A DNA stretch of 64,000 nt from NCBI GenBank assembly GCA_903824665.1, contig CAIJXT010000030.1:62001-126000 (forward strand), written 5' to 3'. Below are positions 6,010-41,429 of the stretch, in pieces. Source of the DNA: an uncultured Bacteroidota bacterium. GTDB taxonomy: Bacteria; Bacteroidota; Bacteroidia; Chitinophagales; Chitinophagaceae. Made by a program: the position numbers and the translations under genes. Under the pieces are notes generated by a model that did no database searches, had not been told where the DNA came from, and saw nothing but the letters and a program-made list of their open reading frames with translations. The first letter of the stretch is position 1. Every line of letters starts with the position of its first letter.

Positions 6010-7746
6010 CTACTTGATGCCATGCATCATCTTCAGCAGTTTCTTCGAGAGGAAGAACAGTATCACCGATGCCACACCAGACATCACAATGAACAGTACG
6101 AAGAAATCAAAGATGTTCGTCATTTTGTATCCCGCAAAGCTGGTCACCTTGCCTGCTTCTGGGTAGTAAGAGCTCAGTGTACCCGCAAATTTGTTCGCAG
6201 TGGCGTTCGCCAGAAACCATGTACCCATCAGCAGCGATGCAAAACGCGCAGGCGCCAGCTTATTCACCAGCGACAATCCTATCGGCGACAGGCACAACTC
6301 ACCCACCGTATGCAGGAAGTAAAGTGCTATCAGCCACATCATGCTCACCTTCACAGCGCCTACGTCCATCACACCAAATGCGATCACCACATAGCCCAGC
6401 GACAGAAACATCAGACCCATCGCCTGCTTGTAAGGCGATGCAGGCTCCATATTCACCTTGCCCAGCTTGCCCCACAGTTCTGCAAACAGTGGTGCCAGTA
6501 TTACTATGAATATAGCGTTCACACTATTAAAGGCGCCCGCAGATATTTCTTTCAGGTCAAATACCTCACCCGATGCAAACCCACTCACGATCTTGTACAG
6601 CAGGTAGGCACCTACTGCAGCAAACAGTATTTTCAGTTCCTTGGGTATACGCATGATGCGGTAAAGTGTATAGTACAGAATACCAGCCAGTGCCGATATC
6701 ACCAGGAATACAGTACCCATGCTCGTATGAATGTTCACCACACGGTTCATCTGCTCATCAGCAAAGAAGGTAAGCGATGCGCCAGCCTGTTCAAAGCACG
6801 CCCAGAAGAAGATCACGAAGAACGCTGCGATAAAGATTACGATGATACGCTCACGCTCTATCTTGGTCAGCGAGGTGTCTGTAAGTATCAGCCCCGGTGC
6901 ACCTATCGATATACTGAATATGCAGCTGCCTATCCAGTCCAGATCCACTACAAAATGAAAAACAGCTATCAATGCCACAATGATCACACCCCATATCATC
7001 ATGCTTGTCTGCGATATTTTACCGCCCTCAGCCTTTGCTTCACCACCTGCGGCTACCCTGGCTGTTTCTTCCAGTGCATCACGTTTTTTGTTGGCTATTG
7101 CGCCCACTTTTTCTCCGGTAGGGCTCACAAGGTATTTTTTCATCAGCTCAAACGACACAATACCGATCAGCATACCTACGCATGCAGCCATAAAGCCCCA
7201 TTTGAAGTCTGCCGGATTGCCCGTATCACCCAGTACGCTACATACTATAGGCGAGAAGAAGGCACCCAGATTGATACCCATGTAGAACAGCGTGAAAGCC
7301 GCGTCCAGACGGGTGTCGCCCTTAGGGTACAGCTGACCCACCAGCGTAGAGATATTGGGTTTAAAGAAGCCATTGCCTATGATCAGTGCCGAGAGGCCGC
7401 CCAGCATCAGCATTTTCGCAAGGTCAGCGTTTTGGTAGTTCGATGCGCTGAAGAACATCAGCAGTTGCCCTAACGCCATAAGCAGCCCGCCAAAGAATAT
7501 CGACTTACGGTTGCCCCAGTAGCGGTCAGCTATATAACCGCCTATCAGTGGTGTCAGATACACCAGGCCGGTATAGCTACCGTAAATGTTCGATGCATCC
7601 GCTTTTTCGGTCATCAGTGCCTTCGTCAGGTACAGCACCAGAATGGCGCGCATACCATAATAACTGAAGCGTTCCCACATCTCTGTGAAGAAGAGGACGA
7701 AAAGTCCTTCCGGGTGCTTCGAACTGTTTTTTGCTTGATCGCTCAT
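6010..7746 (-). CDS. Proton-dependent oligopeptide transporter (POT/PTR2, MFS), second copy
   Basis: 578 aa. It has the same motifs as its neighbour: 'EMWERFSYYGMR' (ExxER), 'GNGFFKPNIS', and 'TLFYMGINLGAFF' for the PTR2 signature. It is about 78 residues longer, mostly from a hydrophilic central loop of roughly 45 residues containing 'EETARVAAGGEAKAEGG' between the two MFS halves plus an additional helix pair. Expected role: proton-coupled di/tripeptide uptake in the inner membrane. The two copies look like an old tandem duplication that may have diverged in substrate range. Confidence 0.93.
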   Translation of the reverse strand: MSDQAKNSSKHPEGLFVLFFTEMWERFSYYGMRAILVLYLTKALMTEKADASNIYGSYTGLVYLTPLIGGYIADRYWGNRKSIFFGGLLMALGQLLMFFSASNYQNADLAKMLMLGGLSALIIGNGFFKPNISTLVGQLYPKGDTRLDAAFTLFYMGINLGAFFSPIVCSVLGDTGNPADFKWGFMAACVGMLIGIVSFELMKKYLVSPTGEKVGAIANKKRDALEETARVAAGGEAKAEGGKISQTSMMIWGVIIVALIAVFHFVVDLDWIGSCIFSISIGAPGLILTDTSLTKIERERIIVIFIAAFFVIFFWACFEQAGASLTFFADEQMNRVVNIHTSMGTVFLVISALAGILYYTLYRIMRIPKELKILFAAVGAYLLYKIVSGFASGEVFDLKEISAGAFNSVNAIFIVILAPLFAELWGKLGKVNMEPASPYKQAMGLMFLSLGYVVIAFGVMDVGAVKVSMMWLIALYFLHTVGELCLSPIGLSLVNKLAPARFASLLMGTWFLANATANKFAGTLSSYYPEAGKVTSFAGYKMTNIFDFFVLFIVMSGVASVILFFLSKKLLKMMHGIK

Positions 7747-7835
7747 ACTATTGGTAGTTTTTTTATTTTACCGGACTGCCAATATAAATAAAATAATTAG
7801 CGTGCTGCCTCCATTTTTTTAGTTTTTTTGCACTT

Positions 7836-9122
7836 ATGTCAGCAAAAAAGCAAAATATCCTCCTTTTAGGGGCAGGCGGCAGAGAGTGTACACTGGCCTG
7901 GAAACTCAAAAACAGCCCCCTTTGTGGAAATTTATATATCTCACCGGGCAATGCTGGTACCAGTGCTTATGGCACCAATCTGTCTGTAGCCGTACTCGAT
8001 TTCGAAGGAATTAGAAAAATTTGCACCGATCACCAGATCGATATTTTGCTGCCCGGTCCCGAAGACCCGCTTGTTGCCGGTATCTACGATTTTATCAAGG
8101 CCGATCCACTCTTGCAGCATATCATCGTTGCCGGTCCTTCCAAAGAAGGTGCGCAGCTCGAAGGCAGCAAGGCATTTTCCAAAAAATTCATGGAGCGGCA
8201 CAATATCCCTACAGCTGCTTACCGCGAATTCACTGCCGACAACTACGACCAGGGTATTGAATACCTCAAAACCTGTCCGTCGCCCATAGTCCTCAAGGCC
8301 GATGGCCTCGCTGCCGGCAAGGGTGTAGTAATTGCTCAGAACACAGCCGAAGCACTCGATGCCTTCCGGTCTATGCTCCGGGATCGTCAGTTTGGCGATG
8401 CAGGCAGCAAAGTAGTCATTGAGCAGTTTCTCGATGGTATCGAACTGTCTGTTTTTGTACTTACAGATGGTACTGGCTATGTCATTCTACCCGCAGCCAA
8501 AGATTACAAGCGGATAGGCGAGGGCGATACCGGCCTCAATACCGGCGGCATGGGTGCCATTTCTCCAGTGCCCTTTGCCGATGAGGTCTTTATGCGCAAA
8601 GTCACAGACCGCATTATCAATCCTACTGTCAATGGATTAAAGGCCGAAAACATCACCTACCAGGGCTTCATCTTCTTCGGACTTATCAAGGTAGGCAACG
8701 AACCATACGTGATCGAATACAATTGCCGCATGGGCGATCCCGAAACCGAAGTAGTAATGCCCCGGCTCGATAACGACCTTATCGACCTGATGCTCAGCAT
8801 GCATGCCGGCACACTCAGCCAGGTTACCGTACACCACAGTCAGCAGGCAGCTGGTGCTGTCATGCTCGTCTCTGGCGGCTATCCCGGCGACTATGCCAAA
8901 GGAAAGGTGATAACAGGTATCGAAAACGTAAATGGCAGTATGGTGTTCCATGCCGGCACTACCGTCCGTGGTACCGACACAGTCACTAGTGGTGGCAGGG
9001 TCATTGCCATCACCTCCTATGGCGACGATATCAAACAAGCCCTCGCAGCTAGCTACACCAATGCCGCCCGCATCCACTACGAAGGCCGTTACTACCGCAC
9101 AGACATCGGCTGGGAGTTCTAA
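7836..9122 (+). CDS. purD: Phosphoribosylamine--glycine ligase (GARS)
   Basis: 428 aa, normal length. It joins 5-phosphoribosylamine and glycine using ATP in de novo purine synthesis. Visible features: N-terminal 'LLLGAGGRE' (followed by Cys-Thr instead of the common His-Ala), 'LLPGPEDPLVAGI', the ATP-grasp segment 'VLKADGLAAGKGV', 'GGMGAISPVP' and 'YNCRMGDPETE', which holds metal/ATP ligands. ATG start is preceded by an A/T-rich short leader. No other pur genes are in the window. Divergent from the POT gene, with about 90 bp shared upstream region. Confidence 0.96.
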   Translation: MSAKKQNILLLGAGGRECTLAWKLKNSPLCGNLYISPGNAGTSAYGTNLSVAVLDFEGIRKICTDHQIDILLPGPEDPLVAGIYDFIKADPLLQHIIVAGPSKEGAQLEGSKAFSKKFMERHNIPTAAYREFTADNYDQGIEYLKTCPSPIVLKADGLAAGKGVVIAQNTAEALDAFRSMLRDRQFGDAGSKVVIEQFLDGIELSVFVLTDGTGYVILPAAKDYKRIGEGDTGLNTGGMGAISPVPFADEVFMRKVTDRIINPTVNGLKAENITYQGFIFFGLIKVGNEPYVIEYNCRMGDPETEVVMPRLDNDLIDLMLSMHAGTLSQVTVHHSQQAAGAVMLVSGGYPGDYAKGKVITGIENVNGSMVFHAGTTVRGTDTVTSGGRVIAITSYGDDIKQALAASYTNAARIHYEGRYYRTDIGWEF

Positions 9123-33248: not shown

Positions 33249-34748
33249 TCAGGCCTGCACCCATGGCTGCAGTGCATCCGCTATTTTACGGTCATTACCC
33301 AGTCTGGGCACCTTGTTCTGGCCGCCCAGCTTGCCTATCGATTTCATGTATTCTATGAAGGCGTTTTTCTGCATCACGCTTATCTTCAGCGGTTGCAGTA
33401 TGCCGCCCGCCATCAGGTCTTCGTAATAGATGTTTTTCGTGCGCAGATAGTTGTTCACAGTTGTCGCAAATGCAGTCATATCAGCCGGCATCGTTTCAAA
33501 CTCTACAAACCACTCGTGGTAGGGCAGGCCTGCAGCCACCTGTATGGCCGGCGCTATAGTAAACTCTGTTATCTGCACACCATGGTCTTTAGACGCGTTC
33601 ATCATGGCATACTCTACTTCTTCCCCTATCACGTGTTCGCCAAAGGCAGATATAAAATGTTTGATGCGGCCGGTAACAACCAGTCGGTATGGGTCTGTAC
33701 TCACAAACCGCACAGTGTCCCCTATGCTATATCCCCACAGGCCTGCATCTGTACTTACGATCAGTGCATAATTTTCTCCCACCTTCACCTGCCCCAGCGA
33801 CAGTCGTGTCGGGTTTTCATGGTGTATTTCACCGGCCGGTATGAATTCGTAAAAAATGCCGGCATTGGTATTCAGCAGCAAGCCCTCGCCACCTATCACA
33901 TCCTGAAAAGCAAAGAAACCTTCCGATGCCGGAAATGTTTCTATCATATCCACCGCGCCGCCCAGGCTATCCAGCAGCCGTGCTTTGTAGGGCTCAAAGT
34001 TCACACCGCCATGCACTATTACCTGTAGCTTTGGGAACAGCTCTTTTATTTTTTTGCCCTCATTGCGTGCCGATAGCCATTCAAAGTACATCTGCATCCA
34101 CGGCGGTATGCCGCTTATCAGCGTCATGTTTTCATTCATCGTTTCCTGCACTATCTTGTCCAGCTTCACCTCCCAGTCTTCTATACAGTTGGTCTCGTAC
34201 GATGGTAGCTGGTTGCCGCGCAGATAGCGGGGTATAAAGTGATTCACTATACCGCTCAGCCTGCCCGTAGGCACACCGCCCACACGCTCCAGTTCGGGCG
34301 AGCCCGAGAGGAATATCATTTTGCCATCAGCAAACGAAGTATTGCCGCTTTCGGCCATGTAGCACAGCAGCGCATCGCGTGCACCGTTTATATGGTTGCT
34401 GATAGACTCCTTCGAGATTGGTATATACTTTACACCGCTTGTGGTACCAGATGTTTTGGCAAAGTAGATCGGGCGTCCTTTCCACAGCACATTCTGCTCT
34501 CCTTCCTTTATTTTATTTATGTAGGGTACAAATGCTTCGTAATCCCTTATCGGTACGGCTTTTGCAAAATCATCGTAGGTCTTCACCTGTTGCATACCAT
34601 GCTCCTTCCCAAACAATGTACGGCTGCCGTTTTTCAAAAGATATTGCAATACTGCCTGCTGGTCTGCAACTGCGGTAGCCATGCCTTTTCGCACTCTGGA
34701 GTGTACCATGGAGGCGTAAGGCCGCGCCAGGAAAGATTTTATTTTCAT
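33249..34748 (-). CDS. GH3 auxin-responsive promoter family protein
   Basis: 499 aa. The bacterial GH3-like acyl-adenylate-forming family: 'YFAKTSGTTSGVKYIPIS' is the phosphate-binding loop, 'LISGIPPWMQMYFEW' and 'GGVNFEPY' follow, then 'FPASEGFFAFQD' and the C-terminal hinge 'DTVRFVSTDPYRLVVTGRIKHFISAFGEHV'. Plant members conjugate amino acids to hormones; bacterial substrates are unknown. Convergent with the VWA gene, 13 bp between stops. Confidence 0.92.
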   Translation of the reverse strand: MKIKSFLARPYASMVHSRVRKGMATAVADQQAVLQYLLKNGSRTLFGKEHGMQQVKTYDDFAKAVPIRDYEAFVPYINKIKEGEQNVLWKGRPIYFAKTSGTTSGVKYIPISKESISNHINGARDALLCYMAESGNTSFADGKMIFLSGSPELERVGGVPTGRLSGIVNHFIPRYLRGNQLPSYETNCIEDWEVKLDKIVQETMNENMTLISGIPPWMQMYFEWLSARNEGKKIKELFPKLQVIVHGGVNFEPYKARLLDSLGGAVDMIETFPASEGFFAFQDVIGGEGLLLNTNAGIFYEFIPAGEIHHENPTRLSLGQVKVGENYALIVSTDAGLWGYSIGDTVRFVSTDPYRLVVTGRIKHFISAFGEHVIGEEVEYAMMNASKDHGVQITEFTIAPAIQVAAGLPYHEWFVEFETMPADMTAFATTVNNYLRTKNIYYEDLMAGGILQPLKISVMQKNAFIEYMKSIGKLGGQNKVPRLGNDRKIADALQPWVQA

Positions 34749-35506: not shown

Positions 35507-35541
35507 AAAATCGCCGAGGACTAACCCCCTACGGCGATTTT
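35507..35541 (+). terminator. Terminator after rpmA
   Basis: 10-bp perfect stem AAAATCGCCG / CGGCGATTTT with a 15-nt loop, directly after the L27 stop. Confidence 0.85.
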
Positions 35542-35581
35542 GCCATATAACGATTTTTGTTTAACCCTTAAATTCACAGTT

Positions 35582-35854
35582 ATGGCAACAGCAAAGAAGG
35601 CGGCCCCTGCTAAAAAAGCAGCACCCGCAAAGAAAGCGGCTCCTGCAAAGAAAGCAGCACCCGCCAAAAAAGCAGCTCCTGCAAAGAAAGCAGCACCTGC
35701 TAAAAAAGCAGCTCCTGCAAAAAAAGCAGCACCTGCTAAAAAGGCGGCTCCTGCTAAGAAAGCAGCAGCAGCTCCAAAAAAAGCAGCAGCTCCTAAAAAG
35801 GTTGCAGCTAAAAAGAATGCTGGCCCTAAAAAGGCAGCCGCTAAAAAGAAGTAA
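35582..35854 (+). CDS. Histone H1-like basic protein made of AAPAKK repeats
   Basis: 90 aa from the ATG at 35582. After 'MATAKK' come nine exact copies of the hexapeptide AAPAKK (nucleotides about 35600-35761, an 18-bp tandem unit), then a looser 'AAAAPKK', 'AAAPKK', 'AAKK' tail. Composition is only Ala, Lys, Pro plus a few Val, Gly and Asn. This matches histone H1 C-terminal-domain-like nucleoid proteins of bacteria, expected to bind DNA or rRNA non-specifically. The tandem unit suggests easy length change by slippage. Own terminator downstream. Confidence 0.88.
   Translation: MATAKKAAPAKKAAPAKKAAPAKKAAPAKKAAPAKKAAPAKKAAPAKKAAPAKKAAPAKKAAAAPKKAAAPKKVAAKKNAGPKKAAAKKK
35600..35761 (+). repeat. 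18-bp tandem repeat array inside the H1-like gene (9 units)
   Basis: Nine in-frame 18-nt units encoding AAPAKK with synonymous differences (GCT/GCA/GCC, AAA/AAG), so the protein repeat is exact while the DNA has drifted slightly. Confidence 0.85.
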
Positions 35855-36081: not shown

Positions 36082-36309
36082 ATGGAACTTATGGAACAGC
36101 GGATATTGGAAAATGTAGTATGGAAAGAAGGGAAATATTATGTGGCACAGTGTCTTAATATTGATATCTCCAGTTTTGGTGAATCTCGGGAAGAAGCGTT
36201 AACAAACCTTGACGAGGCAATAAATCTATATCTGGAAGACGATGAACATCAGGACATTCAAATCGTAGAGAATCCTGAAATTGTTCATCTTTCTGTAAAA
36301 TATGCCTAA
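36082..36309 (+). CDS. hicB: HicB-family antitoxin
   Basis: 75 aa. Partial RNase-H-like HicB fold: 'VVWKEGKYYVAQCLNIDISSFGESREEALTNLDEAINLYLE' is the standard pattern of these short antitoxins. No DNA-binding domain is seen, so autoregulation would need another part. The gene overlaps hicA by 8 bp, with the antitoxin first, the reverse of the E. coli order but common for this subgroup. It would neutralise the downstream mRNA interferase. Confidence 0.88.
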   Translation: MELMEQRILENVVWKEGKYYVAQCLNIDISSFGESREEALTNLDEAINLYLEDDEHQDIQIVENPEIVHLSVKYA

Positions 36310-36514
36310 ATTATTTTCATCTTTTTACGTGCTCAAAATTCTTGAAGCACATGGCTTTATTTTTGTTTCTCAGAAAGGTAGTCATATTAAGGTCCGAAAA
36401 GAGGGAAATCCGACTTTGACAGTGATTGTACCCGCTGGCCGAAAAGAGATACCTCAGGGAACCATGCGTTCCATACTTCGCCAAAGCCAGCTTACTCTTA
36501 TTGATTTCGAGTAA
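36302..36514 (+). CDS. hicA: HicA-family mRNA interferase toxin
   Basis: 70 aa, double-stranded RNA-binding-like fold. The catalytic histidine lies in 'QKGSHIKVRK', the HicA signature, preceded by 'ILEAHGFIFVS' and followed by 'TVIVPAGRKEIPQGTMRSILRQ'. All key positions look intact, so the toxin is probably active. Part of a type II toxin-antitoxin pair at the left side of the accessory island. Confidence 0.88.
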   Translation: MPKLFSSFYVLKILEAHGFIFVSQKGSHIKVRKEGNPTLTVIVPAGRKEIPQGTMRSILRQSQLTLIDFE

Positions 36515-36973
36515 AGCATTCAAACAAACAACAATCTACACGACCAAACGGGACTTTTCGAACGACAAAACCCGCGTTAGGGGTGGGTTATACATTTTCT
36601 GCGGGCTGTAAGGGACAACTTTCGAACTATTTTGTGGCGGATTTGAAGGCGATTGACGACTTATAAAAAAGAGATACATTTATTGCCCCATCAGAAAACC
36701 TAAAAAACTGAAGATAAATCAGGCTAGAGATATTGCTGGAAAACTTCTCAATGGGAAAGTTGGTATCCAGTCTCCCTGAATGAAAATGGTGTTGTATTAT
36801 TTCGTTGATACTGTAATTCATCGTTCTCACTATACTGGGAGTTCTTTATAATCATCGATTATTCTTCCAACTTTGATCAGCTATAAGTAGTGTTCCGCTG
36901 GATAAATAGAAAAAATCCGCTTAATTTAGTTATTTTGCTAACAAATGCCATAATCATTCCGGCTTTTAATAAA
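36515..36973. other. Non-coding stretch between hicA and the DNA methyltransferase
   Basis: A/T-rich DNA that contains the right copy of the flanking repeat (36603-36656). The longest minus-strand ORF (36627-36830, 67 aa) shows no recognisable domain. I see no transposase or integrase remnant that I can support. Confidence 0.5.
36603..36656 (+). repeat. Imperfect direct repeat, right copy, flanking hicBA
   Basis: Second copy of the element at 35951-36007, same orientation, 650 bp apart. Confidence 0.8.
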
Positions 36974-38050
36974 ATGATTAAAGACTATTCTGTAATTGAC
37001 CTCTTTTGCGGCGTCGGAGGCCTAACGCATGGCCTTGTCAAAGAAGGTTTTACTGTTTCGGCCGGTATTGATTTTGATAACTCTTGTAGATATGCTTTTG
37101 AAACAAACAATAATTCGAAGTTTGTCTATAAAGATGTCACCGAATTGACAACAAAAGAACTAAATTCTCTGTACGCTAAAGGAACAAAAAAAATACTGGT
37201 TGGGTGTGCTCCTTGCCAGCCATTTTCGATTTTTAATCATAAAAGTGAAAAGAGCTTAGAGAAACGTAATGCAGATACAAAATGGCGACTTCTATACTCA
37301 TTTGCTAAATTAATCAAGGAAACCCAACCAGAGATAATTTCCATGGAAAACGTACCTCGGTTAGTTACGTTTGATGAAGGTAAAGTTTTTAAACACTTTG
37401 TTTCAACTCTGGAAAAAAATGGCTACACAGTTTCATGGAATATTGTGAACGCCCAGGACTATGGAATTCCACAAAGGAGAAAAAGGTTGATTTTATTTGG
37501 ATCTAAACACGGCAAAATTGAACTAATCGATAGTTTTATTAAAGATAAAAAGTATGCAACTGTTCGAGACGCAATAGGACACTTACCTAAAGTCGAAGAT
37601 GGAGTGATACCTCAGGATGATCCTTTACATAGGGCTCGAAAATTAACTGACATAAATAAGAGAAGAATTCAAGCTACTAAAGAAGGTGGTTTTTGGCGTG
37701 ATTGGGATAAAAGTCTGTGGCTAGATTGTCACAAAAAAAAGACTGGAAAGAACTTTAATAGTGTTTATGGAAGAATGACTTGGAATGAGGTAGCACCAAC
37801 AATTACAACGTATTGTATAGGATTAAATAATGGACGATTTGGGCATCCCGAGCAGGATCGCGCAATCACTTTAAGAGAGGCTGCTTTGCTACAAAGTTTT
37901 CCACAACAATATAAGTTTATAGACCCCGATGCCCCTTTCAGTGGACAGACAATTGCGCGCCATATTGGTAACGCAGTGCCGGTGACTTTAGGTGTAGTGA
38001 TAGCGAAGAGTATAAAAAAACATCTAAAAAGCATTGGCAAAAACAAATAG
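36974..38050 (+). CDS. DNA (cytosine-5)-methyltransferase
   Basis: 358 aa from the ATG at 36974 ('MIKDYSVIDLFCGVGG'); the track's GTG start adds 28 unlikely residues. C5-methyltransferase motifs in order: I 'DLFCGVGGLTHGL', IV with the catalytic cysteine 'GCAPCQPFS', VI 'SMENVPRLV', VIII 'QRRKRLILFGS', IX 'REAALLQSFP' and X 'IARHIGNAVP'. The target-recognition region (about 235-290) does not tell the site. It opens an overlapping operon with GHKL ATPase, receiver, protease-like and Vsr genes, so it is likely the self-marking part or the parent of a methylation-linked defence module. Codon use is A/T-rich compared with flanking genes. Confidence 0.94.
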   Translation: MIKDYSVIDLFCGVGGLTHGLVKEGFTVSAGIDFDNSCRYAFETNNNSKFVYKDVTELTTKELNSLYAKGTKKILVGCAPCQPFSIFNHKSEKSLEKRNADTKWRLLYSFAKLIKETQPEIISMENVPRLVTFDEGKVFKHFVSTLEKNGYTVSWNIVNAQDYGIPQRRKRLILFGSKHGKIELIDSFIKDKKYATVRDAIGHLPKVEDGVIPQDDPLHRARKLTDINKRRIQATKEGGFWRDWDKSLWLDCHKKKTGKNFNSVYGRMTWNEVAPTITTYCIGLNNGRFGHPEQDRAITLREAALLQSFPQQYKFIDPDAPFSGQTIARHIGNAVPVTLGVVIAKSIKKHLKSIGKNK

Positions 38051-40181
38051 AACAAAAGAAAATGATTCTTTACGCTGGCGCTTCGACGTCAACGCGTTTC
38101 GCCTATTAGGTCGAGAGTTAATTACAGATAGGATTACTGCTGTTTACGAACTTGTAAAGAATTGTTATGATGCCAATGCAACAGAAGTGACTATTGACTT
38201 TGTCAACGTTAATTCCGACCTTCCAACCAAGCAAATTATTATCTCTGACAATGGCCAGGGGATGACTTTTGATGATATCAAAAACAAATGGATGGTAGTC
38301 GGTACAAACAACAAACGACTAGCACTGTATTCACCAGTTCCCTTTAAAAGACGCTATGTTGGTGAAAAGGGTATAGGTAGGTTCGCTGTTGACAAATTAG
38401 GATCAAAATTATTGATAAAAACAAAAACTAGGGGAACAACACAGGAACTATTTGTTCGCATCGATTGGGATGAGTATCAAAAGCAATCAGTAACATCAAA
38501 GGCAGAACAGCTGTCATTGTTCACAGAGGTTGAAAATAAATTCTATTACGAGATTGCCGAAAAGAGTATCCACGGTACAGCGTTACAGATTAGTAATGTT
38601 AGCGAACTATGGACGGAGGATGATTTAGAAAGGCTATATAAAGAGCTGTCAAAATTAATTTCGCCATTTTATCCTATCAACCCCCCATTTGAAATATTTC
38701 TTAACTCAAATGAATATCCTGAATACAAGGCTAAACGTGTAAAGCCCGATCCAGTAAAGTTCTATTCGCATCATGCAGAGATAGGGTACGATTTAGAAAC
38801 TAAGAAACAACAATCTTTGAGATTTGATTCAAAGCAAGGTAAGATTGTCACAGATTGGATAGACATGAAGGCCTTTGGCCCTGTGGCGCTAAAAATATTC
38901 TATTTTGATGATGCAGCAAAAAAAAGATATAATCTAGCGTATAAAAATGACGACACTCGTATTGATGGGATGAAAATATACCGTGATGGAGTTATTGCGA
39001 CTCCGTTTGCTGAGTACCATTCTAGCTTAGATCATAAACGAGATATTTTAGGTATTGATAAACGCAGATATGGCTCAGCATTTGATAAAGTGAGCACTCG
39101 GGAAATTATTGGAGTGCTTGACATAAAACAGGAACTTAATCCAAAAATTATTGATGCGACTAATCGGCAAGATTTCATTGACAATACGGAATACCGACAA
39201 CTCAAAGAGTTTATAATTGAGCAAATAGATGTTTTTGGGAAATTAAAAATATTCAAACGTGAGTCTAAAAAAACTGTTGTTCAAAAGGAACTTCAGAAAG
39301 CCGAGAGAGAGGTCGATAATTTTTCAACAGCAATTGACGAAATAGAGCGCGAACTTGTAAAAGAAAAGCCCCAATTAAAAGATACTCTCCAACCGCTAAA
39401 AGAGCAGGTAAAAACATTAAAGTCTACTATTAGTCAAAGTCTAAGCGAGCAAAAAAAATATCAACGTGACGTCATTCGCAAGGAGAATATCTATCTGAGT
39501 TTGATGTCACTACAGGATTATGCATCAAACATTTCGCATGCGATAAGGACATCATTGGGTAAGATTAAACGAATGGCTGAATTTTTCAACCTGCGTTTTC
39601 CTAATCCCAAGTTGGATAAATACTTTGTAGAATATGCACGACTTATTAATGAAGAAATGGACACCTTGATAAAGGTGACAGATTTCATGCTAAGTTATGC
39701 AAGTTCAGAAACTGAATTTGATGATTTCAGTATCAAGGATATGCTTTCTGAATTGCTTTTTCACGCCTACCTTCAAACCTTTGAAGATGAAAACATTCTT
39801 GTTGAAGTCGATTTTAAGGACGATTTTATCATTAATGGCAACAAAAAATTTTTACAAGACATTTTCCAAAATCTAATATCAAATTCTATTAAGGCATTGA
39901 AAGGTAGAGAAAACAAAAAAATTAGATGTTCAGCGTTTTTAGATGATGATAACTTTACCTTGTACTTTTCAGACAATGGCACAGGGATAAAAATTGGTGA
40001 TGAAAAATGGATTTTTGGTTTATATAACACTCGCACTGCTGAGCAAGGGGGATCTGGAATTGGACTATATATTGTTGAGAAGAGAATTGAAGCATTGAAA
40101 GGGACCATAGAAGTTATTGAAAACCAACTTGGGCCGACTGGCGCTACTTTCAAAATAAAGTTACCTTTTAATAAAAAATAA
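38034..40181 (+). CDS. Double-GHKL ATPase: N-terminal Hsp90/MORC-like plus C-terminal histidine-kinase-like
   Basis: 715 aa from a TTG that overlaps the methyltransferase stop by 17 bp. The N-terminal ATPase has N-box 'ELVKNCYDANAT', G1 'DNGQGM' and lid 'GEKGIGRFAVDKLG', as in Hsp90/MutL/MORC proteins. A coiled coil (about residues 415-485, 'ELQKAEREVDNFSTAIDEIEREL') leads to an H-box-like helix with His502 ('ISHAIRTSLGKIK') and a second ATPase with 'FQNLISNSIKAL', 'DNGTGI' (Asp647) and 'GSGIGLYIV'. There is no membrane segment, so it is a cytosolic sensor. With the receiver gene next to it, it may phosphorylate that protein. GHKL ATPases next to methyltransferase and Vsr genes are known from restriction-type loci. 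Confidence 0.88.
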   Translation: MAKTNRTKENDSLRWRFDVNAFRLLGRELITDRITAVYELVKNCYDANATEVTIDFVNVNSDLPTKQIIISDNGQGMTFDDIKNKWMVVGTNNKRLALYSPVPFKRRYVGEKGIGRFAVDKLGSKLLIKTKTRGTTQELFVRIDWDEYQKQSVTSKAEQLSLFTEVENKFYYEIAEKSIHGTALQISNVSELWTEDDLERLYKELSKLISPFYPINPPFEIFLNSNEYPEYKAKRVKPDPVKFYSHHAEIGYDLETKKQQSLRFDSKQGKIVTDWIDMKAFGPVALKIFYFDDAAKKRYNLAYKNDDTRIDGMKIYRDGVIATPFAEYHSSLDHKRDILGIDKRRYGSAFDKVSTREIIGVLDIKQELNPKIIDATNRQDFIDNTEYRQLKEFIIEQIDVFGKLKIFKRESKKTVVQKELQKAEREVDNFSTAIDEIERELVKEKPQLKDTLQPLKEQVKTLKSTISQSLSEQKKYQRDVIRKENIYLSLMSLQDYASNISHAIRTSLGKIKRMAEFFNLRFPNPKLDKYFVEYARLINEEMDTLIKVTDFMLSYASSETEFDDFSIKDMLSELLFHAYLQTFEDENILVEVDFKDDFIINGNKKFLQDIFQNLISNSIKALKGRENKKIRCSAFLDDDNFTLYFSDNGTGIKIGDEKWIFGLYNTRTAEQGGSGIGLYIVEKRIEALKGTIEVIENQLGPTGATFKIKLPFNKK

Positions 40182-40804
40182 TGGCAAATAGTCTATTTAA
40201 AATTGTTGTAATCCACGATGGGCTGACCTCGAATGATGATCCGCTGCTAGTAGAATTAAGGTTAAATTTTGGAGAAGATTCTGTTGAACGGTTTGAGAAT
40301 TCCAATCAAGGTCTCCAGTACGTTTTAGATCATTTGGCACAGAAAATGGTGGTCCTGTTGGACATCAACTTCAGCCATGGTGAACTTTCTGGGGTACAAG
40401 TTTTTGAGGACATTAAGAAACGTACAGCACTTGTTCAGGTGATTATGATTACAGCTAGGTTACTTAGTGAAATTGGACACGAAGATTTAATTAGAATGAT
40501 CAACCACGATGCATTCGCAATTGAAAATGTCTTCAGCTCGCAGAAAATTGTTGGGCTTGTTTCCGCAGCGTTGCATAAAATGGAAGTGAGGGTAGATAGT
40601 GCGCTTGAGCAGTGGATTTCATCTCATTCAGATGAGGAACAAAATCAACCGTATTTAACAACTAGAAATGGGAAAGTTTATACTTTAAAACAAATATTGG
40701 AAGAAATTCGTCAACAAACTCCATATGGTCGGGATATGGAGAAAAAAATACTATTACTCGCCATAGATTTATTGACACGAGGGAAAAAGAAAATTGATGA
40801 TTAA
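40181..40804 (+). CDS. Receiver-domain protein with C-terminal helical extension, no DNA-binding domain
   Basis: 207 aa; start overlaps the ATPase stop as TAATG. Residues 5-130 look like a response-regulator receiver: 'KIVVIHDG' (acidic site near Asp13), phospho-acceptor Asp61 in 'VVLLDINF', and 'VIMITA' with the Thr position. The usual final Lys-Pro is not obvious, so the domain is somewhat diverged. The C-terminal 60 residues ('LKQILEEIRQQTPYGRDMEKKILLLAIDLLTRG') form a short helical module instead of a helix-turn-helix. It would therefore act by protein contact, most simply on the protease-like protein encoded next. Confidence 0.8.
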   Translation: MANSLFKIVVIHDGLTSNDDPLLVELRLNFGEDSVERFENSNQGLQYVLDHLAQKMVVLLDINFSHGELSGVQVFEDIKKRTALVQVIMITARLLSEIGHEDLIRMINHDAFAIENVFSSQKIVGLVSAALHKMEVRVDSALEQWISSHSDEEQNQPYLTTRNGKVYTLKQILEEIRQQTPYGRDMEKKILLLAIDLLTRGKKKIDD

Positions 40805-41429
40805 CATTGATATAGCATTTGATAATGGCGATGTAGGACTAGGTGATTACTTTGAGCAAAGCAAGATCGACCTGGTTTCGTTTGTACATGCAACCCGTAA
40901 TGACCATCTTATAAATGAGATTCCTGGGCCTAGATGCAATCAAGCATATATAGATTTGAGGGTACCTGCAATTAATGGTGGCAATTTTTTGTTCGTATGC
41001 TACTCTCATGGAAAGGAGGATTCTTTAACAGCTAACGGCGACTTTTACATAAAAAAGGACGTCAACTGTGAACTTTTTATTAACTCCTTTTTTTATTCTA
41101 TGAGCTGCCTTACAGCAAAGGAATTAGGTGTCAGCCTGCTCGGTAAAGGTTGTCATGTTTTTATCGGATTTAAAGAAGAAGCGGGTGCTTTTCTTGGTGC
41201 CTATCAGTCAATGTCCATTGCCTGTGACAATTTTGCAATAAAAAAATTTGTTGAAGGGTATTCCATAGGAGAGTCTGTGGCTTTAATGAAACAAAATTAT
41301 ACTCGGCAAATCGACGTTCTCGAAAATGATGGCGAGCCTATGCTTGCTGCCGAGTTACGTGCAAATCGTGACGCGTTATGGTTTGACGGCGATAGAAATC
41401 TGACTATTGATCAATTTGCTATTAATTAA
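40797..41429 (+). CDS. Caspase/CHAT-like (clan CD) protease candidate
   Basis: 210 aa from the ATG at 40797, overlapping the receiver gene by 8 bp. It has the clan CD layout: strand then His71 in 'FLFVCYSHGKE', strand then Cys104 in 'FYSMSCLTAKELG', then 'LLGKGCHVFIGF', which parallels the 'll..Ga..viG' segment of CHAT and gingipain-like domains. No signal peptide or membrane span, so it should act in the cytosol. In bacterial defence loci such proteases cleave partner proteins or kill the host cell. Here it is the likely effector; substrate unknown. The assignment rests on motif reading only. Confidence 0.65.
   Translation: MINIDIAFDNGDVGLGDYFEQSKIDLVSFVHATRNDHLINEIPGPRCNQAYIDLRVPAINGGNFLFVCYSHGKEDSLTANGDFYIKKDVNCELFINSFFYSMSCLTAKELGVSLLGKGCHVFIGFKEEAGAFLGAYQSMSIACDNFAIKKFVEGYSIGESVALMKQNYTRQIDVLENDGEPMLAAELRANRDALWFDGDRNLTIDQFAIN

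Follow-up and report, generated by a model that had tools for sequence, protein, structure and literature searches.

We identified, in the 64,000-nucleotide stretch of Chitinophagaceae DNA analyzed here (hereafter, the window), a cassette of four tightly packed plus-strand genes (bases 36890-41429; Table 1) that code for a DNA methylase, a sensor kinase, a receiver protein and a stand-alone protein that is very probably a caspase/CHAT-like protease. On balance we favor the reading that a soluble, R-M-linked two-component system with anti-phage action has this protease as its output; its activity, interaction and toxicity are inferred. The protease ORF opens with ATG and shares 8 bases with the receiver gene, whose stop codon lies at 40802-40804. 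The methylase gene is listed from a GTG at 36890, and its true start is probably an ATG near 36974.

Table 1. Genes of the cassette and the gene that follows it (window coordinates).
Feature	Coordinates	Strand	Evidence
Cytosine-5 DNA methyltransferase	36890..38050	+	PF00145 E 2e-68; TIGR00675 above cut-off
Soluble sensor kinase, 715 aa	38034..40181	+	PF13589 2e-20, PF02518 8e-24, PF00512 1e-4
Receiver protein, 207 aa	40181..40804	+	PF00072 weak, 1.6e-4
Clan CD (caspase/CHAT-like) cysteine protease (very likely), 210 aa, dyad H71/C104	40797..41429	+	Conservation, model, PDB fold matches
Truncated Vsr endonuclease gene, 66 aa	41432..41632	+	PF03852 2e-27 over first 66 positions, then stop

The Vsr gene is likely a pseudogene, and an accessory rather than a constant part of the cassette; a longer open Vsr copy is found at the same place, after the cassette, in locus L012. 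Upstream of the methylase, two small overlapping genes (36082-36514) resemble, by eye, a HicB/HicA toxin-antitoxin pair, and HicB/HicA-like genes are also present elsewhere near clpP in a same-genus genome (L122). The upstream region also holds genes, named by eye only, for a GH3-like protein (33249-34748) and for a low-complexity, histone-H1-like protein with AAPAKK repeats (35540-35854).

A first-pass annotation, made from the sequence alone, had proposed the protease on the basis of two short motifs. YSHG (containing H71) and MSCLTA (containing C104) are indeed exactly 33 residues apart and are followed by LLGKGCHVFIGF, and the protein length, the 8-bp overlap with the receiver gene and all coordinates and motifs given there also held. 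The bare His/Cys motif is nonetheless weak evidence, since a loose version of the pattern, strand-HG-x(22-42)-strand-[SACT]C, was found in 47 of 3140 shuffled ORFs. We therefore looked to conservation, which lifts the motif above chance. In an alignment of 32 members, which are 18-42% identical to the window's protease, the only invariant columns are H71, G72, C104 and G124. A 40-row alignment, which adds relatives from genome searches and two divergent clostridial members, retains all four residues in 39/39 rows; the fortieth row (L025) was left out of this count, as it is cut by a contig end. With four invariant columns placed at random over about 205 positions, the chance of hitting both of the residues that had been named in advance would be about 3e-4. 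Loss of the His or Cys among homologues, which the first-pass annotation had set as the refutation of its claim, was thus not seen. We also considered C119, in 'GKGCHVFIG', as an alternative nucleophile and rejected it, because C119 is not conserved (the nearby invariant residue is G124). The clostridial proteases (L050, 6628-7473; L051, 3494-4339) are longer (282 aa) and have an extra C-terminal region.

Of the 39 relatives of the protease, two were reached first with the kinase as an anchor, two more by a profile and about 35 by a genome-contig scan. With the protease alone as query, a single-sequence search of 396 phylum genomes returned nothing except the window's own copy, and no relatives were found among plasmids or viral contigs; an anchor on the kinase was needed. 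The window's protease matched no family above cut-off in Pfam, NCBIfam or PADLOC. The gingipain family Peptidase_C25 gave a weak match in 3 of the 32 members (best 6e-4), and searches against PADLOC, NCBIfam and PHROGs yielded only weak single-member matches, which we regarded as chance.

The structure prediction gave a clearer picture. In an AlphaFold2 model built with the alignment (pLDDT 97.4; pTM 0.93), core strand 64-69 precedes H71-G72 and core strand 97-101 precedes C104. When the model was compared to the PDB with Foldseek, SAVED-CHAT was the top match (E 1.5e-5), followed by caspase-7, caspase-4/-11 and separase, with Craspase TPR-CHAT and raptor further down the list. Profile-based sequence searches of the PDB returned chance matches only, despite this clear result of the fold search. 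The caspase-haemoglobinase fold that defines clan CD peptidases is met by the model and its PDB matches, and the 210-aa protein is very likely a clan CD cysteine protease with an intact dyad; the dyad is shown, the fold is predicted by the model and peptidase activity is inferred. The caspase/CHAT-like assignment of the first-pass annotation therefore held. So did its statement that the protein lacks a sensing domain of its own, as one compact domain fills the whole protease and leaves no extra domain.

The two genes upstream of the protease meet the criteria for a two-component system, namely a kinase with an acceptor His and a complete ATP site, and a receiver fold with an acceptor Asp. The kinase consists of an N-terminal MORC/MutL-like GHKL ATPase (HATPase_c_3), a coiled coil, a HisKA-like H-box (H502) and a C-terminal HATPase_c domain. 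Its N-terminus resembles the BbrUII/HgiDII GHKL restriction enzymes (NCBIfam, 6e-23), and a Pfam search revealed no nuclease domain in the kinase. H502 is invariant in 39/39 kinases, N613, N617 and the G boxes are conserved in the same 39, and the ATP-site residues of both ATPase modules are invariant or nearly so, so that both sites are intact. The receiver protein combines a CheY-like domain (acceptor D61) with a C-terminal helical/hairpin domain (model pLDDT 90; receiver matches in the PDB), and neither Pfam, the model nor the PDB fold comparison revealed a recognized DNA-binding domain. D13, D61 and Thr/Ser91 are invariant in 35/35 receivers. These relay residues are intact in the window, yet the window's receiver does not have the canonical Lys, and where an acidic pair is expected it carries HD; its chemistry may therefore be atypical.

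The cassette is conserved well beyond the window, a point that was absent from the first-pass annotation, as were the constant methylase partner and the kinship of the kinase and receiver to a described R-M-linked family. In the genome-contig scan, every intact kinase of at least 37% identity that was fetched (33/33; L019-L048, L052, L053 and L064) is encoded in the order kinase-receiver-protease, with the protease of L025 cut by a contig end; L049 and L065, also at or above 37% identity, were left out because their kinases are incomplete (L049 lies at a contig end). The kinase closest to that of the window (64% identity) is from a Ferruginibacter MAG. Most hosts are Bacteroidota; two spirochaetes (L043, L044) and a Thiomicrorhabdus MAG (L041) are also represented, and the clostridial loci L050 and L051 have kinases that are just 27-28% identical. 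The receiver gene runs into the protease gene in 30 of 39 loci, and in 20 of the 39 the shared stretch is exactly 8 bases; the linkage of these two genes extends across phyla. A C5 methylase adjoins the cassette wherever the flank is available, upstream in most loci, downstream in L050 and L051, and downstream and convergent in L041. The gene order in L050 and L051 is kinase-receiver-protease-methylase (the L050 receiver was not picked up by the search).

No conserved gene was found outside these four on either side; the outer genes are mostly unrelated between loci, and therefore the conserved unit is methylase-kinase-receiver-protease, with a constant order of the signaling genes and protease. 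We rejected the idea that a conserved gene downstream encodes the protease substrate, because the downstream genes are mostly unrelated between loci, and likewise the idea that the cassette always includes a conventional restriction nuclease, because no upstream gene is conserved. L012 alone has a further GHKL gene (6023-8041) between methylase and kinase, whose C-terminus may, by eye, be a nuclease; a separate restriction enzyme may thus have been taken up into this cassette. Tree distances, compared pairwise, are correlated among kinase, receiver and protease (0.65-0.85), while those of methylase and protease are only weakly so (0.35). The methylases are also more diverse than the kinases, which would fit a swapping of target specificity while the signaling module stays.

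Within the genus, the cassette is sporadic. In ten same-genus genomes clpP, the next gene after the window's cassette, is conserved at 92-96%, and methylase, kinase, receiver and protease are all absent from the stretch fetched upstream of it (this stretch is short in L123). Among 396 evenly drawn genomes of the phylum, the protease profile matched only the window's own protein in full; the other hits were two weak fragments. In several loci, McrBC-like genes (by eye) lie behind the cassette. The distribution pattern is probably that of a sporadic defence element, with the defence role resting on context alone.

The same scan also returned kinases of about 24-28% identity that precede a receiver gene, which in many loci is followed by a different gene. 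Among those tested, the genes behind these distant receivers code for HNH nucleases (L056, L062, L067), metallo-beta-lactamase folds (L090, L093) and an HhH-GPD glycosylase (L054), and the distant loci (L054-L101) look as if one sensing module takes interchangeable effectors. In L054, the kinase matches HEF_HK and the receiver Response_reg_2, both falling slightly short of the Pfam cut-offs, and the window's own kinase and receiver show no match to PF19191 (HEF_HK) or PF19192 (Response_reg_2). From the near-threshold matches of L054, we consider the window's system to be a relative, and not a formal member, of the R-M-linked two-component-like family (PMC8011034); the cassette is likely a protease-armed relative of the HEF_HK/Response_reg_2 paraMORC two-component family.

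We propose the following mechanism, in which the steps are inferred. The methylase would mark host DNA, and the N-terminal MORC/MutL-like ATPase of the kinase would inspect DNA, with unmethylated or otherwise abnormal (phage) DNA as the trigger. The trigger would let the C-terminal kinase autophosphorylate on H502, and the phosphoryl group would pass from H502 to D61 of the receiver. The receiver would then activate the protease, through direct binding or by freeing it from an inhibitory complex, and the protease may cut host (or phage) proteins, resulting in growth stop or death of the infected cell. The DNA trigger, a direct receiver-protease contact, the sign of control, the substrate and the anti-phage outcome are all inferred; the first-pass annotation's claims that the protease is an effector and that the receiver is its direct switch are likewise inferences, supported just by genome context, residue conservation and correlated trees. 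Against the mechanism stand the lack of a substrate gene linked to the cassette, the possibly atypical receiver and the weak tracking of the protease by the methylase tree. That a methylation-linked sensor kinase acts through its phosphorelay to switch a protease nevertheless strikes us as the most economical reading. A bolder version, in which the cassette is an R-M-like immunity with proteolysis as its restriction arm, such that the MORC-like kinase reads methylation and the His-Asp relay directly unleashes the caspase-like protease as one branch of an effector-swapping family, is slightly more likely to be wrong than right.

Three other explanations were weighed. The cassette could be an addiction (post-segregational killing) module, in which loss of the methylase leaves unmethylated sites, the relay fires and the protease kills cells without the element. 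Type II R-M systems act as addiction modules, the methylase is always adjacent where a flank exists, and the element is sporadic within the genus; however, the McrBC-like genes beside several loci favor a defence setting, and we consider addiction unlikely. The two readings invoke the same biochemistry and are inseparable by sequence. The protease could instead be a regulator that sets or resets the system by cleaving kinase, receiver or methylase, the true output being control of transcription or methylation. The cassette proteins are possible substrates given that no substrate gene is linked, and the C-terminal domain of the receiver is without assignment. This reading is also unlikely, in that the receiver has no recognized DNA-binding domain and distant kinase-receiver pairs carry, in the protease position, nuclease or hydrolase genes that resemble outputs.

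Lastly, the protein might have kept the fold and serve a non-proteolytic role, such as that of a scaffold or binding partner. Pseudo-enzymes are numerous among clan CD relatives, and no named peptidase family was matched above cut-off; but only four columns are invariant and the predicted catalytic His and Cys account for two of them, a pattern that is difficult to account for if the protein has no catalytic function and that makes this alternative very unlikely.

Two-component systems of bacteria are known chiefly for regulating genes. In this cassette, a His-Asp relay is apparently wired to a caspase-like protease and a DNA methylase, an arrangement that would link the marking of self DNA to an output of the programmed-death type. 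We infer that the four-gene cassette represents a defence in which a two-component signal triggers the cutting of proteins rather than DNA cleavage or the regulation of genes. For an R-M-linked two-component family that is known from genome descriptions and lacks a known output, the cassette provides a function that can be tested, and it suggests that effectors (protease, HNH nuclease, metallo-hydrolase, glycosylase) are exchanged in this family while the sensing module stays the same. The combination is not reported in the open-access literature that we searched; most subscription papers lie outside it, and an earlier description is not excluded. As far as searched, the R-M-linked kinase/receiver family and the protease fold are known, and their combination and the stand-alone protease family are new.

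Among described systems, the HEF_HK/Response_reg_2 two-component-like systems linked to R-M (Bellieny-Rabelo 2021; PMC8011034), of the paraMORC lineage (Iyer 2008; PMC2292703), share with the cassette a soluble kinase with N-terminal HATPase_c_3 and C-terminal HATPase_c domains and an adjacent receiver gene. They are also linked to a C5 methylase and Vsr (PMC8011034), as at the window, so that the criterion of an adjacent kinase/receiver pair with a methylase is met. The difference lies in the protease, which is constant in our cassette, whereas the words protease, peptidase, CHAT and caspase are absent from the text of PMC8011034. In comparison to type II R-M systems, the methylase is present and neither the cassette nor its upstream region holds a conserved nuclease gene. 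The window's protease has its fold and His/Cys dyad in common with SAVED-CHAT, Craspase TPR-CHAT and caspase-family effectors. In SAVED-CHAT and TPR-CHAT, sensing domains (SAVED, TPR) are fused to the protease, and the response is to nucleotide signals or to CRISPR RNA targets; unlike them, the window's protease is a bare domain beside a phosphorelay. The three-gene Detocs family, in which the best-described effector is an ATP-cleaving PNP (PMC11249213), resembles the cassette in using two-component signaling as defence with a dedicated effector. PADLOC gave no match for the window's protease or receiver, although the presence of Detocs models in PADLOC was not established. The Detocs layout is not met, since our cassette has a clan CD fold in the effector slot and a C5 methylase as a constant fourth gene. 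In VapK-VapS-VapC (PMC13373217), a GHKL kinase phosphorylates a serine of a STAS protein and thereby frees a PIN nuclease toxin; the three-gene logic of GHKL kinase, phosphorylated partner and toxin is similar, but the parts of our cassette are a His-Asp relay and a protease. By analogy, Detocs and VapK-VapS-VapC provide precedents, built from other parts, for the logic that we propose.
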